Source of the DNA: an uncultured Acidobacteriia bacterium
GTDB lineage: Bacteria; Acidobacteriota; Terriglobia; Bryobacterales; Bryobacteraceae
Direction of reading: 5' to 3'
DNA: 64,000 bases
Assembly (NCBI GenBank): GCA_903851195.1
Contig: CAINNJ010000039.1
Span: 62,001-126,000, forward strand
The notes beneath the pieces were generated by a model. The model ran no database searches. It saw only the letters and a list, made by a program, of their open reading frames with translations, and had not been told where the DNA came from. Positions 5,361 to 53,529 of the stretch are shown one piece after another. Positions within the stretch are counted from its first letter, which is position 1. Every line of letters starts with the position of its first letter. The position numbers and the translations under genes were made by a program.

Positions 5361-7183
5361 AAGACGCCTTGCGCCTGGCTTCCTATGCGCGCCGTTACTG
5401 GCTGCTGCTGCTGCTGTCCGTCGTTCTGATGGCGCTCATGGGCGTGATGACCGCCGCCCGGGCGCTGCTGATCAAGCCGGTGCTGGGCCGTGTGTTGCGT
5501 CCCTCTTTCGACGCCACGCCGGACCCCATCTTCACCGTCTGGCATCATCCCATCTACCTCGAAAGCTTCTTTCCGGCTCAGTTCCACAACGTTTTCACGA
5601 TCGTCGCCATCTCCATCCTCGTGGTGTTTCTGGTGCGCGGCATCTGCGACTATATGGGCGATTACCTGACCAGCTACGTCGGCTTCTCGGCCGTCACGGA
5701 TCTGCGGAATCAGGTTTTCGAAAAAGTGCTGCGGCACGGCGCGGCATTCTTCGAAACCACCTCCACGGGACGGCTGATGTCGTCCGTGATGAGCGATATC
5801 GACAAAATTCAGGTAGCCTGCTCGGACATGTTCGCCGATCTTCTGCGGCAGACCTTCTCGCTGTTCGGCCTCCTCATCGTGATCTTCGGGACCGACTGGC
5901 GCCTGGCCGTCTTCGCGCTGCTGCTCTTCCCGCTGATCCTGTTCCCGACCGCGCGTCTGGGCCGGAAGATCCGCCGCACCAGCCGGCGCACGCAGGACGC
6001 CACCGGCGAACTGAATCAGGTGCTGCAGGAGGCCATCGCCGGCCATCAGGTGGTGAAAGCCTTCGGCGCCGAAAAATATGAGCTCAGGCGTTTTCGCGCG
6101 GCGGGCGAACGGCTGCTGCGGGTCAACGTGCGCAAGGTTCTGATCCAGGGCATTCCCTCGCCGTTCATCGAATTCATGGGTGCGCTGACCTTCATCGGCC
6201 TGCTCTGGTACGGACGCATCGAGATTCGCAACAACGTGCTGAAGCCGGAAGATTTCATGAGCTTTCTGGCGGCGCTGCTGTTCGTCTTTGAACCCGTGAA
6301 GCGCCTGACCAATCTCTACAGCATCTTCCAGCAGGCCATCGGCGCCTCGGAGAAGGTGTTCAGCTATCTGGATCAGCCGGAGGAAATCTCCAGCAACCCG
6401 GGCGCGATCCAACTGGATGCCTTCCGCCGGAGCATCGTGTTCGACAACGTCACGTTCCGCTATCCCACCGCCACCGGGAATCAGCTGGACCGTGTTTCCC
6501 TCACCATCGAGGCCGGTGAAATTGTGGCCCTGGTGGGTCCAAGCGGGGCGGGGAAGACCACGCTCGCCAGTCTGGTGCCGCGCTTCCGGGATCCCGGCGA
6601 AGGCGCCGTGCTCATCGATGGTGTGGACGTCCGCAATCTCTCGCTCGCTTCCCTGCGGAATCTCACCAGCCTGGTGGCGCAGGAAACGTTCCTGTTCAAT
6701 GACACCGTCGCCAACAATGTCGCGTACGGCATGGAAAAGTACGATCCGGCCCGATTGCGGCAGGCCGCTGAGGCGGCTCTGGCGCACGATTTTATCGAGG
6801 CGCTTCCCCAGGGTTACGAAACCGTCATCGGCGACCGCGGGGTCAAGCTCTCCGGCGGACAGCGGCAGCGTCTCGCCATCGCGCGCGCCATTCTGAAGAA
6901 CTCGCCGATTCTCATCCTGGACGAAGCGACTTCGCACCTCGATACCGAGTCCGAGATGCTGGTGCAAAAGGCCCTGGCGAATCTGATGACCGGGCGCACC
7001 GTGATCGTGATCGCTCACCGGATCTCCACCATTCGCCGGGCCGACAAGATCGTCGTGCTGGAAGCCGGCCGCATTGTGGAAACGGGGAATCACGAGGAAC
7101 TGATCCACCACGGCGGGATTTATCACCGGCTGCATGAACTGCAGTATCTGGACGTGGCAACCCCGGCAGCGGTCGATTTGTGA
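5357..7183 (+). CDS. MsbA-like ABC exporter (fused permease-ATPase)
   Basis: A 608-residue half-transporter: a six-helix exporter-type membrane domain (residues about 1-330) joined to an ATPase domain. Walker A GPSGAGKTT is near residue 395, the LSGGQRQR signature near 500, Walker B ILILDEATS near 520, and the H-loop IAHRIST near 552. This is the MsbA/lipid-A flippase layout. The frame is open further upstream, but the ATG at 5357 overlaps the GT9 stop and begins a sensible N-terminus, while the upstream extension only mirrors GT9 coding sequence. With GT9 next to it, export of a glycolipid or LPS precursor is the likely role. Confidence 0.88.
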   Translation: MKDALRLASYARRYWLLLLLSVVLMALMGVMTAARALLIKPVLGRVLRPSFDATPDPIFTVWHHPIYLESFFPAQFHNVFTIVAISILVVFLVRGICDYMGDYLTSYVGFSAVTDLRNQVFEKVLRHGAAFFETTSTGRLMSSVMSDIDKIQVACSDMFADLLRQTFSLFGLLIVIFGTDWRLAVFALLLFPLILFPTARLGRKIRRTSRRTQDATGELNQVLQEAIAGHQVVKAFGAEKYELRRFRAAGERLLRVNVRKVLIQGIPSPFIEFMGALTFIGLLWYGRIEIRNNVLKPEDFMSFLAALLFVFEPVKRLTNLYSIFQQAIGASEKVFSYLDQPEEISSNPGAIQLDAFRRSIVFDNVTFRYPTATGNQLDRVSLTIEAGEIVALVGPSGAGKTTLASLVPRFRDPGEGAVLIDGVDVRNLSLASLRNLTSLVAQETFLFNDTVANNVAYGMEKYDPARLRQAAEAALAHDFIEALPQGYETVIGDRGVKLSGGQRQRLAIARAILKNSPILILDEATSHLDTESEMLVQKALANLMTGRTVIVIAHRISTIRRADKIVVLEAGRIVETGNHEELIHHGGIYHRLHELQYLDVATPAAVDL

Positions 7184-13252: not shown

Positions 13253-13496
13253 CCGCCGGACACGGCTGAACGGGTTGTTCCGCTGGCTGACGCGCCGCGG
13301 CGGCTCCCGAGCTTTTGAGGAACTCGCGCACAACGGACTCGCTTCCGGCGGCCAAATCCGCCGAGTCCCTCATTCCCCTGGTGCCGCCGAAAGCGGCCTG
13401 TGCGCTTCTCTGGAACTCGCCACCGCCGCGCGCGCGGAATTCGTCCCGTAGTTCCTTTCCTCGCCGGACACACGCCGCAATGATTCAATTGTTGGC

Positions 13497-18776: not shown

Positions 18777-19172
18777 GTGGCCTTCCCCGACTTTCGAGAT
18801 CCTGTTGTCCTCCGGCTGCTGGCCTGCGGCCTGGTCGTCCTGCTCGCAGCGGCGTTCCTGATCTGGAGGCGTTTCCGTCCCCGGCCCACGCCGGAAGAAA
18901 CCGAACGCCTCCGCCGTCTCGCCGTCCACGCCTCGGGCAAACTGATCGCCGGGCAGGTCGTCGACGTGAACGTGCCCATGGTGAATTACTCGTACATCTT
19001 CGCCGGTGTGGAATACTCGGCCTCCCAGGACACAACGGGTCTCGAATCGCTGATGCCCGCCGACCCGATGCACATCCTCGGCGCGACCGGCGTCAAATTC
19101 GATCCCCGGAATCCCGCGAACTCGATTGTGATCTGCGAGAAGTGGTCGGGCTTCGGCCGCCTGCGTTCCTGA
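18777..19172 (+). CDS. Small membrane-anchored hypothetical protein (DUF3592-like)
   Basis: A 131-residue protein with one N-terminal membrane segment (about residues 11-30, LLACGLVVLLAAAFLIW) followed by a basic stretch, then a small soluble domain. The pattern YSYIFAGVEYSASQD and the late VKFDPRNPANSIV resemble DUF3592-type domains (a Tyr-rich strand pair followed by a YDP-like phrase). It starts with GTG three bases after the lipoprotein stop, so the two are likely co-expressed. Function unknown. Confidence 0.6.
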   Translation: MAFPDFRDPVVLRLLACGLVVLLAAAFLIWRRFRPRPTPEETERLRRLAVHASGKLIAGQVVDVNVPMVNYSYIFAGVEYSASQDTTGLESLMPADPMHILGATGVKFDPRNPANSIVICEKWSGFGRLRS

Positions 19173-36267: not shown

Positions 36268-37068
36268 ATGAACGAATACGACACCACTCTGAAAGAAGTT
36301 CTGCTGGATTCCGCCGGCCTTACGTTGCGTCGACTGACAGGGCTGGAGATCCGTTCCTGGCGCAATGTCGAACTGCCGAAGGTCACCAATCCCCGAATTG
36401 ACCTCCTGGGCGAAACGGGAATCGGCGATCTGGTCCATATCGAACTGCAAAGCACCAACGATCCAAAGATGCCCGTCCGCATGCTGGCTTATGGCCTGCG
36501 CATCCTCGAGCAGTACGACCGGTTTCCGGTGCAGGTAGTCCTGTATGTCGGCGCCGCTCCGCTCCGGATGAGAAACCGCCTCCGCCTCCCCGGACTGTCG
36601 TTTGAATACCGGCTGATCGACATCCGTACTCTCGACGGGCCGCAACTCTGCGAAAGTCCCGCAATCGGCGATACAATTATGTCTGTCCTGGCCAGATGGC
36701 CGAACCGTCGGGAAGGTATCCGGCGCATCCTCCGGCGCATCGCGGACCAGGAACCCGCCCGGAGAGGAAAGCTTTTGGCGCAGTTGCTGATTCTGGCGGG
36801 TCTTCGCAAACTCGACCGTGTAATCGAACGGGAGGTAAAACAGATGCCCCTACTGAACGACATTCTGGAACATGAAGTTCTCGGCCGCGAATTTAAGCGC
36901 GGCAAACTCGAAGGAGAGCGCGAGCTTCTCCGCCGCCAGGCCGCGAAACGTTTTGGTCCTCTGCCCTCCTGGGCGGAAGAATTCATTGCCAGCCGATCTC
37001 TGCAACAGATTGAGGAACTCGCCGACCGCGTTCTCGAAGTGAGCAGCCTCGACAATCTGCTTCGCTGA
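36268..37068 (+). CDS. Rpn/YadD-like PD-(D/E)XK nuclease with DUF4351 tail
   Basis: A 266-residue protein. The N-terminal half has the PD-(D/E)XK-like core IDLLGETGIGDLVHIELQS (Asp, then E-x-Q), as in Rpn recombination-promoting nucleases. The C-terminal half, from LLRRQAAKRFGPLPSWAEEFI to the end, matches DUF4351. These proteins are related to a transposase family and can cut DNA to promote RecA-independent recombination. Immediately followed by a shortened copy of itself. Confidence 0.8.
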   Translation: MNEYDTTLKEVLLDSAGLTLRRLTGLEIRSWRNVELPKVTNPRIDLLGETGIGDLVHIELQSTNDPKMPVRMLAYGLRILEQYDRFPVQVVLYVGAAPLRMRNRLRLPGLSFEYRLIDIRTLDGPQLCESPAIGDTIMSVLARWPNRREGIRRILRRIADQEPARRGKLLAQLLILAGLRKLDRVIEREVKQMPLLNDILEHEVLGREFKRGKLEGERELLRRQAAKRFGPLPSWAEEFIASRSLQQIEELADRVLEVSSLDNLLR

Positions 37069-37078
37069 ATCGCTCCGG

Positions 37079-37501
37079 TTGCGTCGACTGACAGGCCTGG
37101 CCCGATGGCTGAACCGTCGGGGAGGTATCCGGCGCATCCTCCGGCGCATCGCGGACCAGGAACCCGCCCGGAGAGGAAAGCTTTTGGCGCAGTTGCTGAT
37201 TCTGGCCGGTCTACGCAAACTCGACCGTGTAATCGAACGGGAGGTAAAACACATGCCCCTACTGAACGACATTCTGGAACATGAAGTTCTCGGCCGCGAA
37301 TTTAAGCGCGGCAAACTCGAAGGCAAACGGGAAGGCAAACTCGAAGGAGAGCGCGAGCTTCTCCGCCGCCAGGCCGCGAAACGTTTTGGTCCTCTGCCCT
37401 CCTGGGCGGAAGACTTCATTGCCACACGATCTCTGCAACAGATTGAGGAACTCGCCGACCGCGTTCTCGAAGTGAATAGCCTCGATAATCTGCTGCGCTG
37501 A
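37079..37501 (+). pseudogene. Internally deleted tandem copy of the Rpn/DUF4351 gene
   Basis: A 140-codon frame nearly identical to the C-terminal half of the preceding gene. Its first codons match LRRLTGL of that gene (36325 onward), then jump directly to the ARWPNRREG segment (36687 onward): an in-frame loss of about 345 bases that removes the whole nuclease core. It also has eight extra residues (a duplicated EGKREGKL unit) near the middle. The copy begins ten bases after the first gene's stop. It may still make a nuclease-free DUF4351 protein, but is best read as a remnant. Confidence 0.75.
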
Positions 37502-37574
37502 ACTTCACTCCGAACCCTTTTACGCGACTCGCCGAAAGTATCCAAAAACACTCCTTCGTCACGCTTGCAAATAA

Positions 37575-42733: not shown

Positions 42734-42737
<4 letters not shown>

Positions 42738-44443
42738 AGCGCGGAACCACGAAGCTCCTCTCGTTGCTGATCTCGTCCTCGTTCGTTGCAGCCGCCCTTG
42801 CGCAGGATCCGCCGCAGCCGCCCACGCCGACCGCCAAACCGATCGAGGTTCCGGCGCGTATCGGCGTCCTTGGCTCGGCGAAGATTACGCTCGCCGAAGT
42901 CATCCAGCGCGTGCTCGAAAACGACCGCGATCTCGCCGTCTCCCGCATCGCCCGCGAAGAGGCCGTGCTGAACTATCGTGGCGCGCAGGGGGCTTTCGAC
43001 CCGCGTCTCGGCCTGGCCTCCCACAACAGCCGTGTCATTACGCCTGTCAGTTCCTCCCTGGGAGGCGCCACCAACGGCAAGCTGACCACCAAAGAACTCT
43101 ACGCCGATCCGCAACTCAGCGGCGCTTCGCCGTGGCTCGGAACCACCTACAAACTCGATCTCTCGTCGGCCCGGCAGAGCAGCGACAGCACCTTCAACAC
43201 GCTGAATCCGCAGTTCCCCACATCCCTTAACCTCAATCTCAACCAGCCCCTCTGGAGAGGCCTCCGGTATGACGACAACCGCCACCGCATTCAGGTAGCG
43301 AAGAAGAACATCCAGCTCACCGACGAGCAGTTCCGCCAGCGCGTCATCGAAGTGGTCACCCAGGCGATCCAGGCCTACTGGGAACTTGAGTTCGCCTACC
43401 GCAATCTCGACGTCCAGAACGAAGCCGTGCGCCTCGCGCTGCAGCAGGATGCCAGCAACCGCCGTCAGGTGGATCAGGGCCTGCTTGCACCGGTGGACGT
43501 CGTGCAGACCCAGACGCAGATCGCCACGTTCCAGCAGAACCTCTTCTCCGCCCAGGGCGCGCTCACCACAGCCGAGAACGCTCTCAAAGTCCTCATCCTG
43601 GCCGACCGCACCGACCTGATGTGGGGTATGGCCCTCGAACCTGACACCCGCGCCGCGGAAACCCCGGACGCGCTGCCTTCGCTCGATGACGCCGTCAAAC
43701 AGGCCCTCGCCGGCCGCCCGGAGCTGAAAGAAAGCGCCATCGCCCTTGACGTGAACCAGCTCGACGCGCGCCTCAGCCGCGAACAAACCAGGCCGCAGGT
43801 CGACGTCTTCGCGAACGTCAGCACCGTGGGTCTCGCCGGCCATCCGCTGGTGCAGACCGGCGCCAATCCGTTCACGTCGGCGTTCGGCCCGCTGGTCAAC
43901 CAGATCAACCTGCTGTCCACCCAGGCCGGCATTCCGCCGCTGGGCCCCATCTCGTTCGGTAGCAGTTCCGTGCCGCCCGCGCTGATCGGCGGCTACGGGC
44001 AATCTCTGAGCAACCTGGCGAATGCTCATTACACCAGCGCTTCGGTGGGCGTCAATATCTCACTGCCGCTGCGGAACCGCACGGCCAACGCCTCGGCCGC
44101 GGTCTCCGTCGCCGAAGGGCGCCGCCTGCGCACCCAGCGCCAGCAGGTGGAACTCGCCATCGAGCAGGATGTCCGCAACGCCATCCAGTTGGTCACCTCC
44201 TCGCAGGCCCGTCTCGAAGCGGCCAACAACGCGCAGCGCTACGCCGATGAGCAGTATCGCAGCGAGCAGCGCCAGTTCCAGGCCGGCACCACCACGGTCT
44301 TCCTGGTCCTGCAACGCCAGACCGATCTGATTGCCGCCCGCACTCGCCAGGCCCGCGCCGAAGCCGATTTAGGCGAAGCCCGCGCCAATCTCGATCGCGC
44401 GCTGGCCCGCACCATCGAAGCGCGCGGTATCCGAATCCAGTAA
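42734..44443 (+). CDS. TolC-like outer-membrane efflux protein
   Basis: A 569-residue outer-membrane factor with a signal peptide (about residues 1-24, ending AALAQ) and two repeated helical coiled-coil/beta-strand units, the TolC/OEP layout. The heptad-rich segments around residues 200-280 and 440-560 (for example VEQDVRNAIQ-type helices) form the tunnel. Starts with TTG inside the RND stop. A Pro-rich stretch after the signal peptide is common in acidobacterial family members. Completes the tripartite pump. Confidence 0.88.
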
Positions 44444-44468: not shown

Positions 44469-47363
44469 ATGGCCATCTCGCTGCGGCGCGTCGCGCTTTT
44501 CCTCCTTTTCGAGTCCGCCGCAGCGGTGGCCCAGACCGTCCCCACGCCCGAATCCGTCCTCGGCCATAAGCCAGGCGACGATTTTTATCTCGCCAGTTAC
44601 GACGAATCCCGCGACTGTTTCCGGAAACTCGCCGCTTCTTCCGACCGCGTCCGGATCGTCAACGTCGGCAAAACAACGCGCGGGCTCGATTGGGAAATCG
44701 CCGTCATCTCCTCCCCGAAGAACCTCGCGCAACTCGATCGCTACAAAGACATCTCGCACCGCCTCGCGATGGGACGCGGGCTCGACGACACCACCGCCCG
44801 TGCTCTCTCCCGCGAAGGCAAAGCCATCGTTCACATTGATGGCGGCCTGCACTCCACGGAGGTCGCCGGCGCGCAGCACTCCATCGCGCTGGCGTACAAA
44901 CTCGCCTCCGTCAAAGGCGATCCCCAAATCGACGCCATCCTCGACAACGTGATCCTGATGCTCTGGCCCACGCTCAATCCCGATGGCCAGAACGAAGTCG
45001 TCAAATGGTATCGACAAAACCTCGGCACTCCCTACGAGGTCAGCCCCCTGCCCGATCTCTATCAGGAGTACGTGGGCCACGACAACAACCGCGACGGCTA
45101 CATGAACAACATGCTCGAATCGCGCGACGTCACCCGCACGGAACTGGAATGGGATCCCGTCATTTTCTACTGCCAGCACCAGACCGCCCCGTTTCCCGCC
45201 CGCATCTTCATCCCGCCGTTTGTCGAGCCCATCTCCTCGAACATCCATCCCCTGATGGCGCGCTGGCTCAACGTTCTCGGCATGAACATGGCAGCCTATC
45301 TGGATGGCCATGACATGCCAGGCGCCATTCACCGCACCGGCTTCGACAACTGGTATCCCGGCTTCCTCGACTTCACCCACATCTTCCGCAACAGCATCTC
45401 GTTCTTCACCGAAACCGCTCTCTACCGCTACGCGACGCCGCACTTCTACACCGTGGACGAGTTCCCCAAAGACCGCGCCGGCCTGCGTTCCGAGGTTTTC
45501 TACAGCAGCCCGTGGAAAGGCGGCTGGTGGCGGCTTGCCGATGCCGTCCGTTACATGGAAGGGGCGTCGATGTCGGTCCTCGACACCGCTGCCCGCTATC
45601 ACGAAGAGCTTCTCTTCAACCGCTACCAGGCCGCCCGCGACAACATGGAGCGCTTCCGCAAAGAGCCGCCCTACGCCTATGTGATTCCGCGCGAACAGCA
45701 AGACCTTCCCGAAGCCGCCGCGCTGGTCGATAAGCTTCTGACCAACGGCATCGAAGTGCACCGCGCCACGCGCCCCTTCGTCGCCAGCGGCCGCCAATAC
45801 AAAGACGCGTGGGTTGTCCTGATGGACCAGCCCTTTTCGCCGCTCGTCAAAGAGCTGTTCGAAGCGCAGCGCTACCCCGAAATCCGCGACGGGACCAACG
45901 GTCCGCCCATTCGTCCTTACGACGTTGCCGGGTGGACCCTTCCCCTGCAAATGGGCGTGGAAACCGCGGCAGTCGCGCAGCCGGTCACGGCGGAACAACG
46001 CGAAGGTCTTCGCAGGATTGAAAAGCCGGAAGCCCCGGAAGGCGAACTCCGCGGCAACGACCGCGTTTACCTGCTCAGCCGCCAGACGAACAACAGCTTC
46101 ACCGCTCTGAACGAAGCTCTCGCGGCGGGCGCCCAGGCGGCCATCGGGACGGACGATTTCGTGCTGACCGGCATCGCCCATGACGCGCTTGCCAAAATCG
46201 CCGTCCGCCAGTCCGTTACCGTGCGGACCACCCTCGCGCCGCCCGCCGGAGTTCTGCCCGCGAAGAAGCCCCGCGTGGGACTCTACCGCTCCTGGACGGC
46301 GGCGATCGACGAGGGCTGGACGCGCTGGATCCTCGAAAATTACGGCTTCGCCCCGATTGGCGTCCGCAACGGCGACCTGCAGGCCGGCCACTTACTCGAA
46401 CGCTTCGACGCGATCATCATCCCCGACTCCTCGCCCCGCGCCGTCATGGAAGGCTTCGCCCCCGGCACCGTTCCCGGCGAGTACGCGGGCGGTGTCGGTG
46501 AGGCCGGCGTGGAGGCTCTACGCGCGTTCGTGCGCGGCGGCGGGACGCTGATCGCCTTCAACAATGCTTCGCTGTTCGCCATCGACGCACTCAACCTGCC
46601 CGTCACCAACGTGCTCAGCGGTCTGAAGCCGGAGGAGTTCTTCTGCTCCGGCTCCCTGCTGCACATCGAACTCGCCGAAACTCCCCATATCGCCCTCGGC
46701 GGAATGCCCCGCAACCCCGTGGCGATGTTCGAACGCGGCCCGGCCTTTGACCGCAAACCCGCGTTTCAGGGCAATATTCTGGCGACCTATCCGAAGGACG
46801 TGAATCCTCTCGCCAGCGGCTATCTCCTTCACCCCGAGCGCATCCAGGGCAAGGCCGCCGCGCTCGAAGTCTTCGACGGCAAAGGGCGCGTCTATCTGTT
46901 CGGTTTCAAGCCGCAGTGGCGCGGCCAGTCGCACGGGACATACAAGTTGTTCTTCAACGCGATCTACGATTCGCCCGCGATCGCCAAACCCACGTCGTTC
47001 GAGAAGAGGTCCGCAGCCGAAGTGCCACCGCCCTCTTCTCAGGACTGGACCGCCCTCACCCGCCGCGTCCAGAGCGACTTGGCCGAACTGCTCCGCCTGA
47101 ATCGCATCTTCTTTGCCGCGAAAGGCACCGCCGCCGTGGAAGCCCGCGACAAACTCACCACCGCCGCCGACGCCTTCACCAAAGACCGTCTCCCGGAGGT
47201 GGAATCCTCAGCCCTCGCGCTCGACGAAACCGCCCGCCGGAAGGTGCCGGACTATCTGCGCCAGTTGCGCGCCGCCGCAACGGACCTGCAAACCAAGGAA
47301 GCAGAAGCGTCATTAACGCCGGATACTCTCGCTGCCCGTTATAAGCTCGATCCGCCAAAATAG
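44469..47363 (+). CDS. Large secreted M14 zinc carboxypeptidase-family protein
   Basis: A 964-residue protein with a signal peptide (about 1-21, ending AVAQ). The M14 domain shows the zinc pair H128-x-x-E131 (in GGLHSTEVAG), a TLNPDGQNE substrate block and a later His in FYCQHQTAPFPARIF. The rest (about 400-960) has a glutamine-amidotransferase-like fold segment (IIIPDSS, GGGTLIAFNN) and a helical tail. This is the long M14 type common in Acidobacteria and Bacteroidetes. It probably degrades peptides in the periplasm. It follows tolC by 25 bases and may be co-transcribed with the pump. Confidence 0.85.
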   Translation: MAISLRRVALFLLFESAAAVAQTVPTPESVLGHKPGDDFYLASYDESRDCFRKLAASSDRVRIVNVGKTTRGLDWEIAVISSPKNLAQLDRYKDISHRLAMGRGLDDTTARALSREGKAIVHIDGGLHSTEVAGAQHSIALAYKLASVKGDPQIDAILDNVILMLWPTLNPDGQNEVVKWYRQNLGTPYEVSPLPDLYQEYVGHDNNRDGYMNNMLESRDVTRTELEWDPVIFYCQHQTAPFPARIFIPPFVEPISSNIHPLMARWLNVLGMNMAAYLDGHDMPGAIHRTGFDNWYPGFLDFTHIFRNSISFFTETALYRYATPHFYTVDEFPKDRAGLRSEVFYSSPWKGGWWRLADAVRYMEGASMSVLDTAARYHEELLFNRYQAARDNMERFRKEPPYAYVIPREQQDLPEAAALVDKLLTNGIEVHRATRPFVASGRQYKDAWVVLMDQPFSPLVKELFEAQRYPEIRDGTNGPPIRPYDVAGWTLPLQMGVETAAVAQPVTAEQREGLRRIEKPEAPEGELRGNDRVYLLSRQTNNSFTALNEALAAGAQAAIGTDDFVLTGIAHDALAKIAVRQSVTVRTTLAPPAGVLPAKKPRVGLYRSWTAAIDEGWTRWILENYGFAPIGVRNGDLQAGHLLERFDAIIIPDSSPRAVMEGFAPGTVPGEYAGGVGEAGVEALRAFVRGGGTLIAFNNASLFAIDALNLPVTNVLSGLKPEEFFCSGSLLHIELAETPHIALGGMPRNPVAMFERGPAFDRKPAFQGNILATYPKDVNPLASGYLLHPERIQGKAAALEVFDGKGRVYLFGFKPQWRGQSHGTYKLFFNAIYDSPAIAKPTSFEKRSAAEVPPPSSQDWTALTRRVQSDLAELLRLNRIFFAAKGTAAVEARDKLTTAADAFTKDRLPEVESSALALDETARRKVPDYLRQLRAAATDLQTKEAEASLTPDTLAARYKLDPPK

Positions 47364-47400
47364 TATGCCAGCGGAAATCTGTAGACTCGCCCGGATAAAC

Positions 47401-47871
47401 TCACGTCGTTAGCGTCGGATTCTCTGGATTGGTTACTCGGAAGCCCTCCAACTCAGCCACTGCGCACAGCCTCCGGTCGGCTGCGACGAACACAGGCGCG
47501 AACCCTTCCTGTTTGAGTCTGACGGCTACGGCCAGTTGCAAAGCGTCGAGCGTTCGAAGACTTCGCTCCGTTCCGTGCTTCTTCACCAATAATCTTGCTG
47601 TTCCGAAATGCAGGTCGGAACCGGCAGCCATCCGCAGATGACCGCGGCCCAGATCGGATTCAAGCCGCCGCCTGGCAACGAAAGCCGTACCTCTGTCGAT
47701 CTCCCCGGTCCGAACTCTGGTCGCGAGTGCCGATTCCATTTCGACCATGGTCAATCGCGAAATGACGCGCTGGTCTGCCGCAGCGGCGAAGAGCCGCTCC
47801 ATGAAATCGCTGCCCTCCTCCCGTCGATAGTACTTGACTAACGCACTTGTGTCGACGAAGTACAGCGACAA
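47401..47871 (-). CDS. VapC-like PIN-domain toxin
   Basis: A 156-residue PIN-fold ribonuclease. The four acidic active-site residues are visible in order: D7 in FVDTSALVKYY, E in MVEMESAL, D in LRTLDALQLAVA and D in FVAADRRLCAVA. It starts with TTG directly after the stop of the antitoxin gene (no spacing), the usual coupled arrangement. VapC toxins cut specific tRNA or rRNA when not bound by antitoxin. Confidence 0.88.
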   Translation of the reverse strand: MSLYFVDTSALVKYYRREEGSDFMERLFAAAADQRVISRLTMVEMESALATRVRTGEIDRGTAFVARRRLESDLGRGHLRMAAGSDLHFGTARLLVKKHGTERSLRTLDALQLAVAVRLKQEGFAPVFVAADRRLCAVAELEGFRVTNPENPTLTT

Positions 47872-48132
47872 TCAGCGATCCCGTCGTTCCTCAATGATCA
47901 GTTGAGAAAGAGAACCCGCAATTCCGGATAAGCGATCCCGAACATCGTCCAGCGCGATTTCCTCTCTGGCGGCATCGGCCCATTCGTCCGGTGAAACGAA
48001 CAGCGGCCCGCTTCCCGAAAAGTCCACGTCGTCGGAGACCGTGACTGTGACACGCTGATGCTCCGGAATAGGCAGGGAGTCTGACAGATGCAGAACTCCG
48101 CCTTCATACGTAGCCTCAACCGTGCGCTGCAT
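47872..48132 (-). CDS. Antitoxin, DUF104/AF2212-like
   Basis: An 86-residue protein whose N-terminal half (VEATYEGGVLHLSDSLPIPEHQRVTVTV) has the AbrB-like swapped-hairpin pattern of DUF104 antitoxins; the C-terminal half has an acidic stretch expected to wrap the PIN toxin. It directly precedes the toxin gene on the same strand. DUF104-VapC pairs are known in archaea and Acidobacteria. It probably also represses its own promoter. Confidence 0.75.
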   Translation of the reverse strand: MQRTVEATYEGGVLHLSDSLPIPEHQRVTVTVSDDVDFSGSGPLFVSPDEWADAAREEIALDDVRDRLSGIAGSLSQLIIEERRDR

Positions 48133-48189
48133 ATGCCGAGTTTAGCCTTTCCCTCGACCTCTGGCAAACGCTCCTGTCTCCCCCAACCT

Positions 48190-48378
48190 CCTCCCCTACA
48201 TCCGAACCTGCGCCCGACCCCGCACCCCCCGATACGGATACTTCTTCTCAAATTCCCCGAAATTCACGCGAATTCCGATCCCCGGGCTCGTCCGGCAGCC
48301 GCACTAGCGCCTCCTTCTGCGTCGGATACGTCCCCTCGGTCATTTCCCGGAAGAGATCGTCATCCGCGCCCTCTCACT
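48190..48378 (-). pseudogene. Degenerate copy of the enolase-gene 3' end
   Basis: This stretch is about 90% identical by eye to 49775-49962, the last roughly 60 codons (plus six bases after the stop) of the enolase-superfamily gene. A one-base insertion near 48284 and several substitutions break the frame. The similarity stops abruptly at both ends. It lies just upstream of the antitoxin gene and marks the left edge of the low-GC insert. Confidence 0.85.
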
Positions 48379-48646
48379 GGAAAAGGCCGTCGCGAGCAGT
48401 ACCAATTTAGTGTTCAGACATGGTATACCCGCCAAGCAGCTACGGACGATGACAACGGACGTCAAGTTTTTTTTATAGTGGATCCTTTGTTGTTTCAACG
48501 AGTTGCGGTTGCCTGTGGACGGCGCCGTGATCCGAAAGCTGACCTGAGTCTGATATCTGGAATCAAGAGGTTTAAAGAAATTTTCGGGATTTGTCGATAG
48601 AGTTGGAGAAGCAGAATGTATAATTTGATACCAGAGTACAGCAGAA

Positions 48647-48976
48647 GTGACAAACACGCCATTGACGGACGCCGAGCGCATAGCCGAAATGAAGTCATTC
48701 TGCTTCCGTGTCGTCGACGGCTTACTGCGCGTTGCTGCCGCAATAATTTTTGCGCTTGCCGACAGGCTTGTACAAATTGTACTAGAAAATACAGTATTCA
48801 GGTCGGGTCCGCGCTTTCTGGAACTAGCAGAACAAATTTCAAATGTCGGATTTGTGCTTCTCGACGTATATCTAATGTGGGACATGCTGACGGTCTTCGT
48901 TCCGCAGTTGAAAGGGAAACATGGAATACAAGAAGTCAGGGCAGTGGGAATTGAGGAGCCAACTGATGATCTTTAA
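48647..48976 (+). CDS. Unknown small membrane protein in the low-GC insert
   Basis: A 109-residue protein starting at GTG. It has a charged N-terminus (about 1-20), a hydrophobic stretch near 24-45 (RVAAAIIFALADRLVQIVL), and a second one near 68-85 (VGFVLLDVYLMWDMLTVFV). No family is recognised. It overlaps the next gene, so the two are likely co-translated. Codon usage is much less GC-biased than its neighbours, supporting foreign origin. Confidence 0.5.
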   Translation: MTNTPLTDAERIAEMKSFCFRVVDGLLRVAAAIIFALADRLVQIVLENTVFRSGPRFLELAEQISNVGFVLLDVYLMWDMLTVFVPQLKGKHGIQEVRAVGIEEPTDDL

Positions 48977-49496
48977 CAAAGTGCTTCGATTGTTGCCATC
49001 CCTTGCGATTCTGGCTGCCATAGGCGTTGGCGCTGCTCGCGCTCTTGGAGCCAATGCGCAGGATACGCCAGTTATTGCGGTAGTGCCGGGGATTGTGCTG
49101 TTCGTCCTTTCCCGGGTCGTCCTTTGGATGCGCGTGCCGTCCGAGGAAGAGACGAGAGAGATGCAGCGTCAGATCTCCGGAGCTTCTTTGTTTTTTATAA
49201 AGGTGACTGCGGCGGTCATGCTTATTTGCACCGTATCGACTATTTCTGCCGCCTCGTATGCGGCAATGGGATTCCATACAGCGGCATCTCTAACCTTTCG
49301 TTTCGCCGTCGCGATGCTTTTAATCATACCGGCAAGTGCCTTTATAGTCTTTTGCTTCGCTACTGTCACTCGTCAGTATCGCTCTTGGAGAAAAAGCATT
49401 CCAGCACTAAAACCATTGCTGGCTTGTGCTTTGCTCTCAATTTTTATGGTCCCTACGGTAATCGCGGATCACTCGACGTGGGTACATAAAGGATAG
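48966..49496 (+). CDS. Unknown polytopic membrane protein in the low-GC insert
   Basis: A 176-residue protein with about five hydrophobic segments (LLPSLAILAAIGVGAARAL, IAVVPGIVLFVLSRVVL, and three more). The ATG at 48966 follows GAGGAG at eight-base spacing and is preferred over the ATG at 48921. It overlaps the end of the preceding gene by 11 bases. No family recognised. Paired small membrane proteins next to a toxin-antitoxin unit could be part of a toxin or defence module, but nothing in the sequence proves it. Confidence 0.55.
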   Translation: MIFNKVLRLLPSLAILAAIGVGAARALGANAQDTPVIAVVPGIVLFVLSRVVLWMRVPSEEETREMQRQISGASLFFIKVTAAVMLICTVSTISAASYAAMGFHTAASLTFRFAVAMLLIIPASAFIVFCFATVTRQYRSWRKSIPALKPLLACALLSIFMVPTVIADHSTWVHKG

Positions 49497-49636
49497 CGAA
49501 ACCAGAATGGAGGTCGAGATTGGTTCCATAGGCATGGGCCGCGCCGCACTGGCCTCGGTTCATGGCTTCCTTCCCGGACTCCTCGGCCCGGATCCGTATC
49601 CTTTTCGCTGCGCAAGGAACGGCTGCCCTCTTTGAG

Positions 49637-49664
49637 CCCGCGACAAACTCTAATGAGTCGCGGG
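49637..49664. repeat. Inverted repeat, 8-bp stem
   Basis: CCCGCGAC and GTCGCGGG flank a 12-base AT-rich loop, 140 bases after the last insert gene. The stem is not followed by a T-run on the plus strand (GTGTCTGGGG follows), so it is a weak terminator candidate only. Confidence 0.45.
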
Positions 49665-49714
49665 TGTCTGGGGCAGAGGCGCTGTCTCGCAGTGGCCTCC
49701 TCCCGAATCAAAGA

Positions 49715-49730
49715 CGCGGAGGCCTCCGCG
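49715..49730. repeat. Perfect 16-bp palindrome
   Basis: CGCGGAGGCCTCCGCG is exactly self-complementary and sits 45 bases from the right edge of the insert, near the enolase stop codon. It may be a recombination or protein-binding site. Confidence 0.4.
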
Positions 49731-49780
49731 GTTCAGACACCTTCGGCAATCGTTACAACTCGACCCGGAAATAGCCTCCC

Positions 49781-50986
49781 CTACATCCGAACCTGCGCCC
49801 GCCCCCGCACCCCCCGATACGGAAACTTCTTCTTAAATTCCCCGAAATTCACCCGAATTCCGATCCCCGGCGCCTCCGGCAGCCGCACCAACCCATCCTT
49901 CTGCGTCGGATACGTTCCCTCGGTCATCTCCCGGAAAAGCTCGTCATCCGCGCCTTCCCACTCATGAATCAGACAATTCCGGCAAACCGACATCGCCGCC
50001 AGGGACGCCATATGCGCGACCGGCCCGCTGCACTGGTGCGGCGCCACCTCCACCCCATACGCCTCCGCCAGATTCGCGATCTTCCGCAGTTCCGTAATCC
50101 CGCCGGCGTGCATCACATCCGGCTGAATAATCGCCGCCCCCTTCGCATCCAGCAGCGACTTGAATTCATACCGCGAAAACAGCCCTTCACCGGTCGCAAT
50201 CGGCACCGGACTCTTCGCCGCCACCTCGCCCAAGCCCGCCGGACTCTCCCGCAACACAGGCTCCTCCAGAAACAGCGGATGATACGGCGCAATCGCGTTC
50301 GCGAACTGAACCGCCGACCGCACCGAGAACGTCTCCGCGCACTCCAGCGCGATATCGCCGCGATTGCCGAACACCCCCCGAATCGCCGCCAGTTCCGCCA
50401 CGTTCTTCGCGATGCGCTCCAGTTCGAAATCGCCCTGGGGCAGCGTGTATTTCACCGCCGTCCAGCCCTGTTCACGCGTCTTTGCCGCCAGGTCCGTCAG
50501 CGCCGCCACGTCGCGCTTCTCTTTGGGAATCGACGCATCCCAGTGCGTGAAATACACGCGCTGCTCTTTCCGGATCGGCCCGCCCAGCAGGCGGTGCAGC
50601 GGCACGCCGAGCCGCTTCGCCTCGATATCCCACAACGCCTGATCGATCGCCGAAAGTCCGGTCATCAGCGCCGGGCCGTTGCGCCACCTGGTCGCCACGT
50701 AGTACACGCGATTCCAGTGCTCTTCGGGACCGGAAGGATCGCGCCCCACATACTCCGGTTCCAGCCACCGCAGCACGGCCTCCGCGATATCGGTGCGGCT
50801 CTCCAGCGTCGCCTCGCCAAGGCCGGTGATACCGGCGTCCGTGTAAACCTCCACGAACATCAGGTCGCGCCAGCGAACCGAAACTTTATGAATACCGAAA
50901 CCGGTGATTTTGACGTTTCCCGAAGGCCCGGCCGCGAGCAGCGGCAACGCCCCCAATCCACTCAGCAGCGAACGGCGAGTCAGCAC
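49781..50986 (-). CDS. Enolase-superfamily dehydratase (galactonate dehydratase-like)
   Basis: A 401-residue mandelate-racemase/muconate-lactonizing-type enzyme with a twin-Arg-like start (MLTRRSLLSGLGALPLLAAG), suggesting Tat export. Metal ligands fit the three acidic positions: ALECAE, FLEEPV and ATGEGLF; the catalytic His is in VEVAPHQCSGPVAH, and the Lys in AVKYTLP. The first ligand is Glu rather than the usual Asp. It probably dehydrates a sugar acid. Its 3' end exists in a second degenerate copy 1.6 kb away. Confidence 0.85.
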   Translation of the reverse strand: MLTRRSLLSGLGALPLLAAGPSGNVKITGFGIHKVSVRWRDLMFVEVYTDAGITGLGEATLESRTDIAEAVLRWLEPEYVGRDPSGPEEHWNRVYYVATRWRNGPALMTGLSAIDQALWDIEAKRLGVPLHRLLGGPIRKEQRVYFTHWDASIPKEKRDVAALTDLAAKTREQGWTAVKYTLPQGDFELERIAKNVAELAAIRGVFGNRGDIALECAETFSVRSAVQFANAIAPYHPLFLEEPVLRESPAGLGEVAAKSPVPIATGEGLFSRYEFKSLLDAKGAAIIQPDVMHAGGITELRKIANLAEAYGVEVAPHQCSGPVAHMASLAAMSVCRNCLIHEWEGADDELFREMTEGTYPTQKDGLVRLPEAPGIGIRVNFGEFKKKFPYRGVRGRAQVRM

Positions 50987-52974: not shown

Positions 52975-53529
52975 CTAAGCCTTTGTGTTGGGTTTGCGTC
53001 CCGCGAGCGCGGCCACTACGCGGTCCGTCATCTGGTCGATCAAGGCCGGCATCGCGGCATCCAGAGCCACCGTGACCGCCGCGCGCACCAGTTCGGGGTC
53101 GATCACCGCCACTGAGCGCGGGGCCTGCGCCACAGGGGCGACCGCCGCCACCGCCGGCGCCGGACGTTTCTTATTCCCCTGCACGAACCGCCCGATCGAA
53201 CTCAGCAGCAGCGTCGCCTCGAACGGCTTCTTCAGTATGCCGTCCGCGCGAACCCGGTCCACCTCGGCCTCGTCGATCCGTTCCACCGCGCCCGCCGTCA
53301 AAATCACCGGCGCGCCGCCGTGCCGCTTCACGTACTCGCAGACTTCATAGCCGGAGACCTCCGGCATCGAAATATCCGCGATAATCAGGTCCGGCTCGGC
53401 GTCCTGCAGACGCAACATGGCCACGCGGCCATCGCTTACCGTGATGACCTCGTGGCCTTCGTCGCGCAGAATTCTCTCCCCCATCCGTTGGGCATGGGGG
53501 CTGTCATCCGCCAGCAGAATCCGGCTCAT
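52975..53529 (-). CDS. Receiver-domain response regulator with a short helical C-terminus
   Basis: A 184-residue protein: a CheY-like receiver (residues 1-120) with D8/D9, phosphorylation site D52 (IIADISMPE), T78 and K101 (KKPFEA), and then a 60-residue tail rich in Ala/Val with a VALDAAMPALIDQMTDRVVAAL helix. There is no DNA-binding domain, so it likely acts by protein contact. It overlaps the BamD-like gene by four bases (ATGA), an unusual neighbour. Confidence 0.85.
   Translation of the reverse strand: MSRILLADDSPHAQRMGERILRDEGHEVITVSDGRVAMLRLQDAEPDLIIADISMPEVSGYEVCEYVKRHGGAPVILTAGAVERIDEAEVDRVRADGILKKPFEATLLLSSIGRFVQGNKKRPAPAVAAVAPVAQAPRSVAVIDPELVRAAVTVALDAAMPALIDQMTDRVVAALAGRKPNTKA

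Follow-up and report, generated by a model that had tools for sequence, protein, structure and literature searches.

A 64,000-nucleotide stretch of DNA from an uncultured Acidobacteriia bacterium (family Bryobacteraceae; contig CAINNJ010000039.1, positions 62,001 to 126,000; hereafter the window) contains a partial repeat of a gene of the enolase superfamily. This gene, called ENO here, is of the mandelate racemase / muconate lactonizing type, and a fragment of its 3' end, called ENO', lies on the far side of a low-GC segment. ENO and a gene for an outer-membrane efflux protein (OEP) are separated in the window by 5,337 bases that hold an M14 peptidase gene, vapC, vapB, ENO', two overlapping open reading frames (ORFs) named orfA and orfB, and M14', a probable decayed piece of M14 next to ENO. 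Arrowheads marking orientation, the order is OEP> M14> <vapC <vapB <ENO' orfA> orfB> M14'> <ENO (Table 1). The genome is a draft of 7.7 Mb in 67 contigs.

Table 1. Features of the OEP–ENO region, with positions in the window
Feature	Position	Strand	Basis or remark
OEP, outer-membrane efflux protein gene (TolC-like), left border of gained region	42734..44443	+	PF02321, E 3.8e-41
M14 zinc-carboxypeptidase-like gene, intact ORF	44469..47363	+	PF00246
vapC-like PIN-domain toxin gene	47401..47871	-	PF01850
vapB-like antitoxin gene	47872..48132	-	PF01954, AF2212-like; antitoxin name from position beside vapC
ENO', decayed copy of ENO 3' end	48190..48378	-	TGA, +1 shift
Low-GC segment with orfA and orfB	48379..49529	.	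GC 0.514 for 48379-49774; single place in own genome
orfA, 109 amino acids, two hydrophobic stretches	48647..48976	+	Relative in G071 adjoins another membrane-protein ORF
orfB, 191 amino acids, five hydrophobic stretches	48921..49496	+	Could instead start at a later ATG, near 48966 by eye
M14', probable decayed piece of M14 3' part	49530..49702	+	Matches 47041-47209
Right repeat copy, covering the final 182 bases of intact ENO and 6 bases past its stop	49775..49962	-	Alignment
ENO, MR_MLE enolase-superfamily gene, intact ORF	49781..50986	-	PF13378 and PF02746 (MR_MLE_C/MR_MLE_N); 86% amino acid orthologue in G009

A preliminary description of the window had claimed that the ENO 3' end is duplicated at about 90% identity around a low-GC insert of roughly 1.4 kb, which was said to carry two unknown membrane-protein genes and no integrase. 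These observations all hold. The coordinates of the copies are exact, and a local alignment of 189 columns has 16 mismatches and one single-base gap, or 91.0% identity (blastn against the window, E = 4.5e-72). Homology runs from 6 bases beyond the ENO stop codon to 182 bases inside the gene. In ENO', a tryptophan codon has become TGA and one extra base shifts the reading frame by +1. The 1,396 bases between the copies (48379-49774) have a GC content of 51.4%, compared with 62.2% for the window, and GC at third codon positions is 0.48 in orfA and 0.54 in orfB, compared with 0.79 in the body of ENO. Neither orfA nor orfB has a match in Pfam at E 0.001 or in PADLOC at E 0.01, and their rows in PHROGs (E 0.17 or worse) and NCBIfam (E 0.045 or worse) are weak. 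The recombinase gene expected of an integrative element is not found among orfA and orfB in any of these four collections, and the Pfam scan recognized none among the five proteins of the OEP–ENO gap.

The site was examined in relatives, which belong to other species. In G009, ENO (protein 86% identical) and OEP converge tail to tail with 13 bases between them, and in G011 they have the same arrangement with a spacing of 308 bases. These are two of the 12 relative loci examined; the others have different downstream content or reach a contig end. A second ENO 3' end was detected at none of the 12 loci at E 1e-5, several of the loci being on short contigs. G009 is without the whole 5.3 kb at this site, M14 included. 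Because ENO adjoins OEP in G009 and G011, the gained stretch appears to be the entire OEP–ENO gap and not merely the 1.4-kb segment. The preliminary description had proposed a test of whether relatives have ENO and the vapC pair side by side without the insert. In G009 and G011 the neighbor of ENO is OEP, the missing DNA is the full 5.3 kb, and the order M14-vapBC-ENO was not found. By these comparisons, the 5.3-kb stretch, which we read as a mosaic, is absent at this site in G009 and G011 and includes a second partial ENO 3' end. They also support the view that DNA was gained beside the ENO 3' end and that ENO was kept intact. Separately, the ENO orthologue of G011 is itself broken into two frames near codon 225 (L039:4549-5752).

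M14' came to light in a scan for repeats around loci that encode PIN-domain proteins. Aligned in the same orientation, it and the 3' part of M14 agree in 111 of 174 columns, with a score of 82 that none of 500 dinucleotide shuffles reached (maximum 53). When windows were drawn at random from the same genome, three of 3000 attained this score in a first draw and two of 6000 in a second, the latter two being M14 itself and the M14' site. From this alignment, M14' is very probably a real second partial copy of the M14 3' part. If it is accepted, then both neighbors are doubled in matching order, as M14...ENO' and M14'...ENO, and we conclude with moderate certainty that the M14/ENO junction is present twice, with one half broken each time. 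With the same moderate certainty, the position of M14' beside ENO suggests that the repeated context extends beyond a gene end or attachment region. The two broken halves have diverged to very different extents, at 57 of 168 ungapped columns for M14' versus 17 of 182 for ENO' (p about 2e-8); with gap columns counted, the value for M14' is 63 of 174 (p about 1e-9).

The M14 gene also seems to move. Its five best homologues (G009, G019, G004, G014, and G017) lie in retrieved stretches of 5–15 kb from which both ENO and OEP are absent, and the flanks in G009 are unlike those in the other four.

Direct repeats were surveyed in 1,687,825 bases (22%) of the window's own genome as pairs of at least 80 nt within 12 kb. 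This yielded 51 pairs, including 12 rows at 80% identity or more, and the copies are more than 1 kb apart in five of these rows: the window pair, C46:51938, C4:397617, C46:192002, and C4:194087. The C46:192002 repeat lies in two adjacent long ORFs, and that at C4:194087 is 85 nt at 81%. The other two, hereafter the C46 and C4 repeats, resemble the window pair, as does one repeat in the relative G019; the partial-gene repeats flank stretches of 1.1–1.4 kb. The survey covered this genome alone, and the frequency of such repeats cannot be called high.

At C46:51938-52165 / 53253-53480 (L167:11938-12165 / 13253-13480), the last 228 bases of a 3-keto-disaccharide-hydrolase-like gene recur at 97.8% identity. 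The intervening 1,087 bases carry a PIN-domain (vapC-like) gene and an antitoxin-like ORF that has no Pfam match, and their GC content (0.608) is similar to that of the flanks. Members of this gene family in relatives are 67-77% alike over longer matches, and none of the relative loci fetched matched both the repeat gene and the OsmC/sigma block, as an empty site would. By eye, the gene upstream appears to have a frameshift at a C homopolymer near L167:11820. At C4:397617-397719 / 398843-398945 (L144:17617-17719 / 18843-18945), a 2-hydroxyacid dehydrogenase gene has its 5' part repeated upstream at 90.3% identity, across 1,123 bases. In G019, the M14 homologue is preceded by a copy of 154 bases from its own 5' region (L096:4761-4914 / 6353-6506); 1,438 bases, with a repeat-rich ORF of 330 amino acids, separate this piece from the corresponding part of the gene. 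The C4 and G019 repeats sit at gene starts, which counts against a mechanism specific to gene 3' ends.

The differences between the repeat copies are informative about their history. Between ENO and ENO', 9 of 17 differences are synonymous, compared with a fraction of about 0.26 expected for neutral decay (kappa 2, p = 0.018), and an alternative alignment gives 8 of 16 (p = 0.036). Such an excess would fit two alleles whose divergence took place in part while both were genes. The C46 repeat likewise shows an excess (4/5), as does the G019 repeat (7/9) with repeat-edge codons included. Pooling these two and the C4 repeat with ENO gives 22/42 synonymous differences versus 0.27 expected (p = 4e-4) for a set of unlike cases that were picked after viewing.

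We tentatively favor the explanation that imported DNA (M14-vapBC-ENO') meets resident DNA at a seam in this locus. Unequal divergence of the broken halves together with the synonymous excess favors a junction of this kind between diverged haplotypes, of which one brought M14-vapBC-ENO' and the other held orfAB-M14'-ENO, and the repeat is best read as this seam and not as a pair of attachment sites. Under this explanation, the donor would have been a related strain in which the genes run OEP-M14-vapBC-ENO, and the transferred segment would have stopped about 183 bases into the donor's ENO. The segment could have been anchored by homology on the OEP/M14 side, and the cut end of the donor ENO may have been joined by chance to resident DNA consisting of orfA-orfB, an old M14 remnant, and ENO. 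The resident ENO would have stayed whole, whereas the donor ENO end would have been left as a fragment that then decayed. The donor, the anchor, and the direction of import are what we infer from the arrangement. The most fitting description of the locus is a mosaic gap in which a partial-gene repeat lies at a probable seam of imported DNA.

Several observations weigh against this explanation. The supposed donor order M14-vapBC-ENO was found in no genome among those searched, and the relatives compared are other species, not strains of the same species. The TGA codon and frame shift are carried by ENO', the copy taken to be the donor's, and when changes on the ENO' branch alone are counted, 5 of 10 are synonymous, which is not significant (p = 0.07-0.13). 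The differences at the C4 repeat look neutral (3/12 with repeat-edge codons, p = 0.67). M14' rests on a nucleotide alignment at 64% identity, its translated match is short and weak (E 0.005), and the tails of the M14 homologues of G019, G014, and G009 do not beat shuffles when compared with it.

Two known processes are close to the proposed import. Homology-facilitated illegitimate recombination joins foreign DNA to the chromosome by one homologous and one random end. This process, like the partial duplications made by transformation, of which a pneumococcal merodiploid paper (PMC3784515) reportedly gives an example, would leave truncated allelic pieces; both are known from experiments, and here we infer them. 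A minimal mobile element consists of variable gene content between two conserved genes and is exchanged by homology in both flanks. The locus is similar in that OEP and ENO are neighbors in G009 and G011 and have variable content between them, but at the ENO' seam there is no homology.

Among known kinds of event, the nearest is insertion with long target duplication, which we consider a possible but doubtful alternative to the import seam. In this case, orfA-orfB would have entered an M14/ENO junction, the target would have been duplicated on both sides, and vapBC would have been acquired separately. Restriction-modification genes can insert with long and variable target duplications on the order of 100 bp, as described in three papers (PMC3031569, PMC1643837, PMC3874152), and papers that cite Nobusato et al. 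(2000) attribute to that study such insertions of Helicobacter pylori restriction-modification genes. The resemblance is that a short gene unit with no recognized recombinase is flanked by direct repeats on the order of 100 bp or more. Apart from vapBC, the order target-insert-target fits 47041-48378 / 48379-49529 / 49530-49962, and the same genome has the C46 PIN-toxin pair within its gene-end repeat. However, the insert differs from those of H. pylori in consisting of two membrane-protein genes. Flanking copies made by a single duplication should be of equal age, but the supposed target halves M14' and ENO' differ strongly in divergence. A single duplication event therefore fits poorly if M14' is real, unless later conversion evened the ENO copies. 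In passages of PMC3874152, PMC2654758, and PMC3031569, which came up in one literature search on such duplications in connection with toxin-antitoxin genes, the term "long target duplication" refers to restriction-modification systems or occurs as a reference-list entry, which is a narrow literature basis for calling anything here new.

The preliminary description had interpreted the repeat as the product of integration at a gene end with restoration of the gene. A remnant of a site-specific integrative element of this kind, which would have brought in a replacement for the ENO 3' end, moved the original to 48190-48378, and then lost its integrase, is unlikely. Its geometry is that of e14 in icd, for which PMC11148124 describes a 165-bp 3' segment with 12 changes repeated beyond the prophage. 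As expected of such an element, ENO is intact and a displaced ENO 3' end, of 189 bp in this case, is present at the far junction; the low GC content and the end of homology 6 bases past the stop codon also agree with it. In contrast with e14, no integrase or phage genes are recognized, the insert is only 1.4 kb, and a second neighboring gene is also partly present. The occurrence of M14' beside ENO, within the supposed element, is not explained, and the C4 repeat of the same genome is at a gene 5' end.

Searches for relatives of the insert also speak against an integrative element. The insert was found at a single place in its own genome at E 0.001, in a match row that did not separate the internal repeat and may merge overlaps. 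Phage and plasmid records gave no match to orfA or orfB except one insignificant plasmid row (E 0.7), and none of 24 pattern matches in IMG/VR is a relative of orfA. Between 47000 and 51000, Rfam gave no match at E values of up to 1, and the window as a whole contains no detected tRNA. On these grounds (single genomic place, no phage match, unrelated IMG/VR matches, and no tRNA), the reading of the insert as a mobile element was set aside.

The ENO 3' end was also considered as a possible chimera, as replacement by an element would require. The last 183 bases are less similar to palsa_350 (0.710 versus 0.765 for the earlier part) and to G011 (0.699 versus 0.762), whereas relative to G009 they are at 0.803 and the rest at 0.780. 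A similar C-terminal drop occurs between G009, palsa_350, and G011 themselves. A chimeric end is not demonstrated, because a variable C-terminus accounts for the drop in identity. What stands of the preliminary interpretation is that DNA was gained at a gene 3' end and the gene remained intact; site-specific integration with restoration is not supported, and the integration reading is possible but not the one we prefer.

About as unlikely is a partial duplication of the ENO 3' end in place, followed by unrelated insertions and decay. Of 14 changes that could be polarized, 10 fall on ENO', the TGA codon among them, and a tandem partial gene duplication exists elsewhere in the window (36687-37512). 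This scenario is at odds with the synonymous excess between the copies and leaves M14' unexplained. An assembly artefact that joined two strains is very improbable: The genome is a draft in many contigs, but similar partial-gene repeats recur elsewhere in it, and ENO' and M14' are not simply a strain's working genes because both are decayed.

As a lone locus, the finding is modest. A broader proposal is that these Acidobacteriota recurrently gain small gene units of 1.1-1.4 kb without a recombinase, and that such units, which here encode a PIN-toxin pair, two membrane proteins, or a repeat-rich protein, come in attached to 100-230 bases of a relative's allele of a neighboring gene, so that a partial-gene repeat is left on both sides. 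We regard this whole proposal as rather improbable at present. For the import-seam explanation, the C46 repeat, with its toxin-antitoxin-like pair inside, would be a clean test case. If the repeats are import seams, they would constitute a countable record of recombinase-free gene gain in a little-studied group, and partial-gene repeats at such seams could pass for integrase attachment sites. If units of this kind do enter in this way, long target duplication would no longer concern restriction-modification genes alone but also small modules such as toxin-antitoxin pairs.

A link between toxin-antitoxin genes and repeats was also tried. For this, 39 PIN-domain loci of the same genome, a set that includes the C46 locus and may be incomplete, were inspected for straddling direct repeats within 4 kb, or a shorter distance near contig ends. 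Such repeats straddle four of the 39 PIN loci, compared with 13 of 400 places chosen at random (Fisher p = 0.054); for strong repeats, the counts are one of 39 and three of 400 (p = 0.31). One of the four repeat-straddled loci is the M14/M14' pair itself. Given these p values, no claim of a link is made. Elsewhere in the genus, the best-scoring match to the vapC of the window is 45% identical (G007), and one short partial match reaches 55% (G005).

Relatives of the insert genes are scarce. An orfA relative is present in one of 199 other genomes of the family and one of 256 other genomes of the order, the same genome (G071) in both cases, and orfB by its own sequence was found in none of the 199. 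The G071 protein and the orfA product share 35% identity across 93 residues (pairwise E 2e-17), and the G071 gene overlaps an ORF for a membrane protein of 184 amino acids in the orfB position, which is 27% identical to orfB in a MAFFT alignment and not significant by blastp. The 5.7-kb contig of G071 that carries the pair has no ENO match, and the same element at the same site was found in no other host among the 199. These similarities suggest that orfA-orfB is likely a rare two-gene membrane unit. Upstream of the G071 pair, on the same strand, is a gene for a TIR-domain protein (PF13676; L100:2472-3044), whose N-terminal stretch may be HU-like. A search of 395 other genomes of the phylum returned one weak orfA match (G529, E 2e-5), which was dismissed as hydrophobic similarity; it sits in a longer ORF that presumably encodes a mechanosensitive channel. 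The predicted structures are poor, with mean confidence (pLDDT) of 68 for orfA and 49 for orfB.

The tandem duplication noted above involves a DUF4351-domain gene (36268-37068). Its 3' part is repeated at 36687-37077 / 37096-37512 with 90.4% identity and a spacing of 18 bases, and the repeat yields an ORF of 140 amino acids with a DUF4351 domain of its own.

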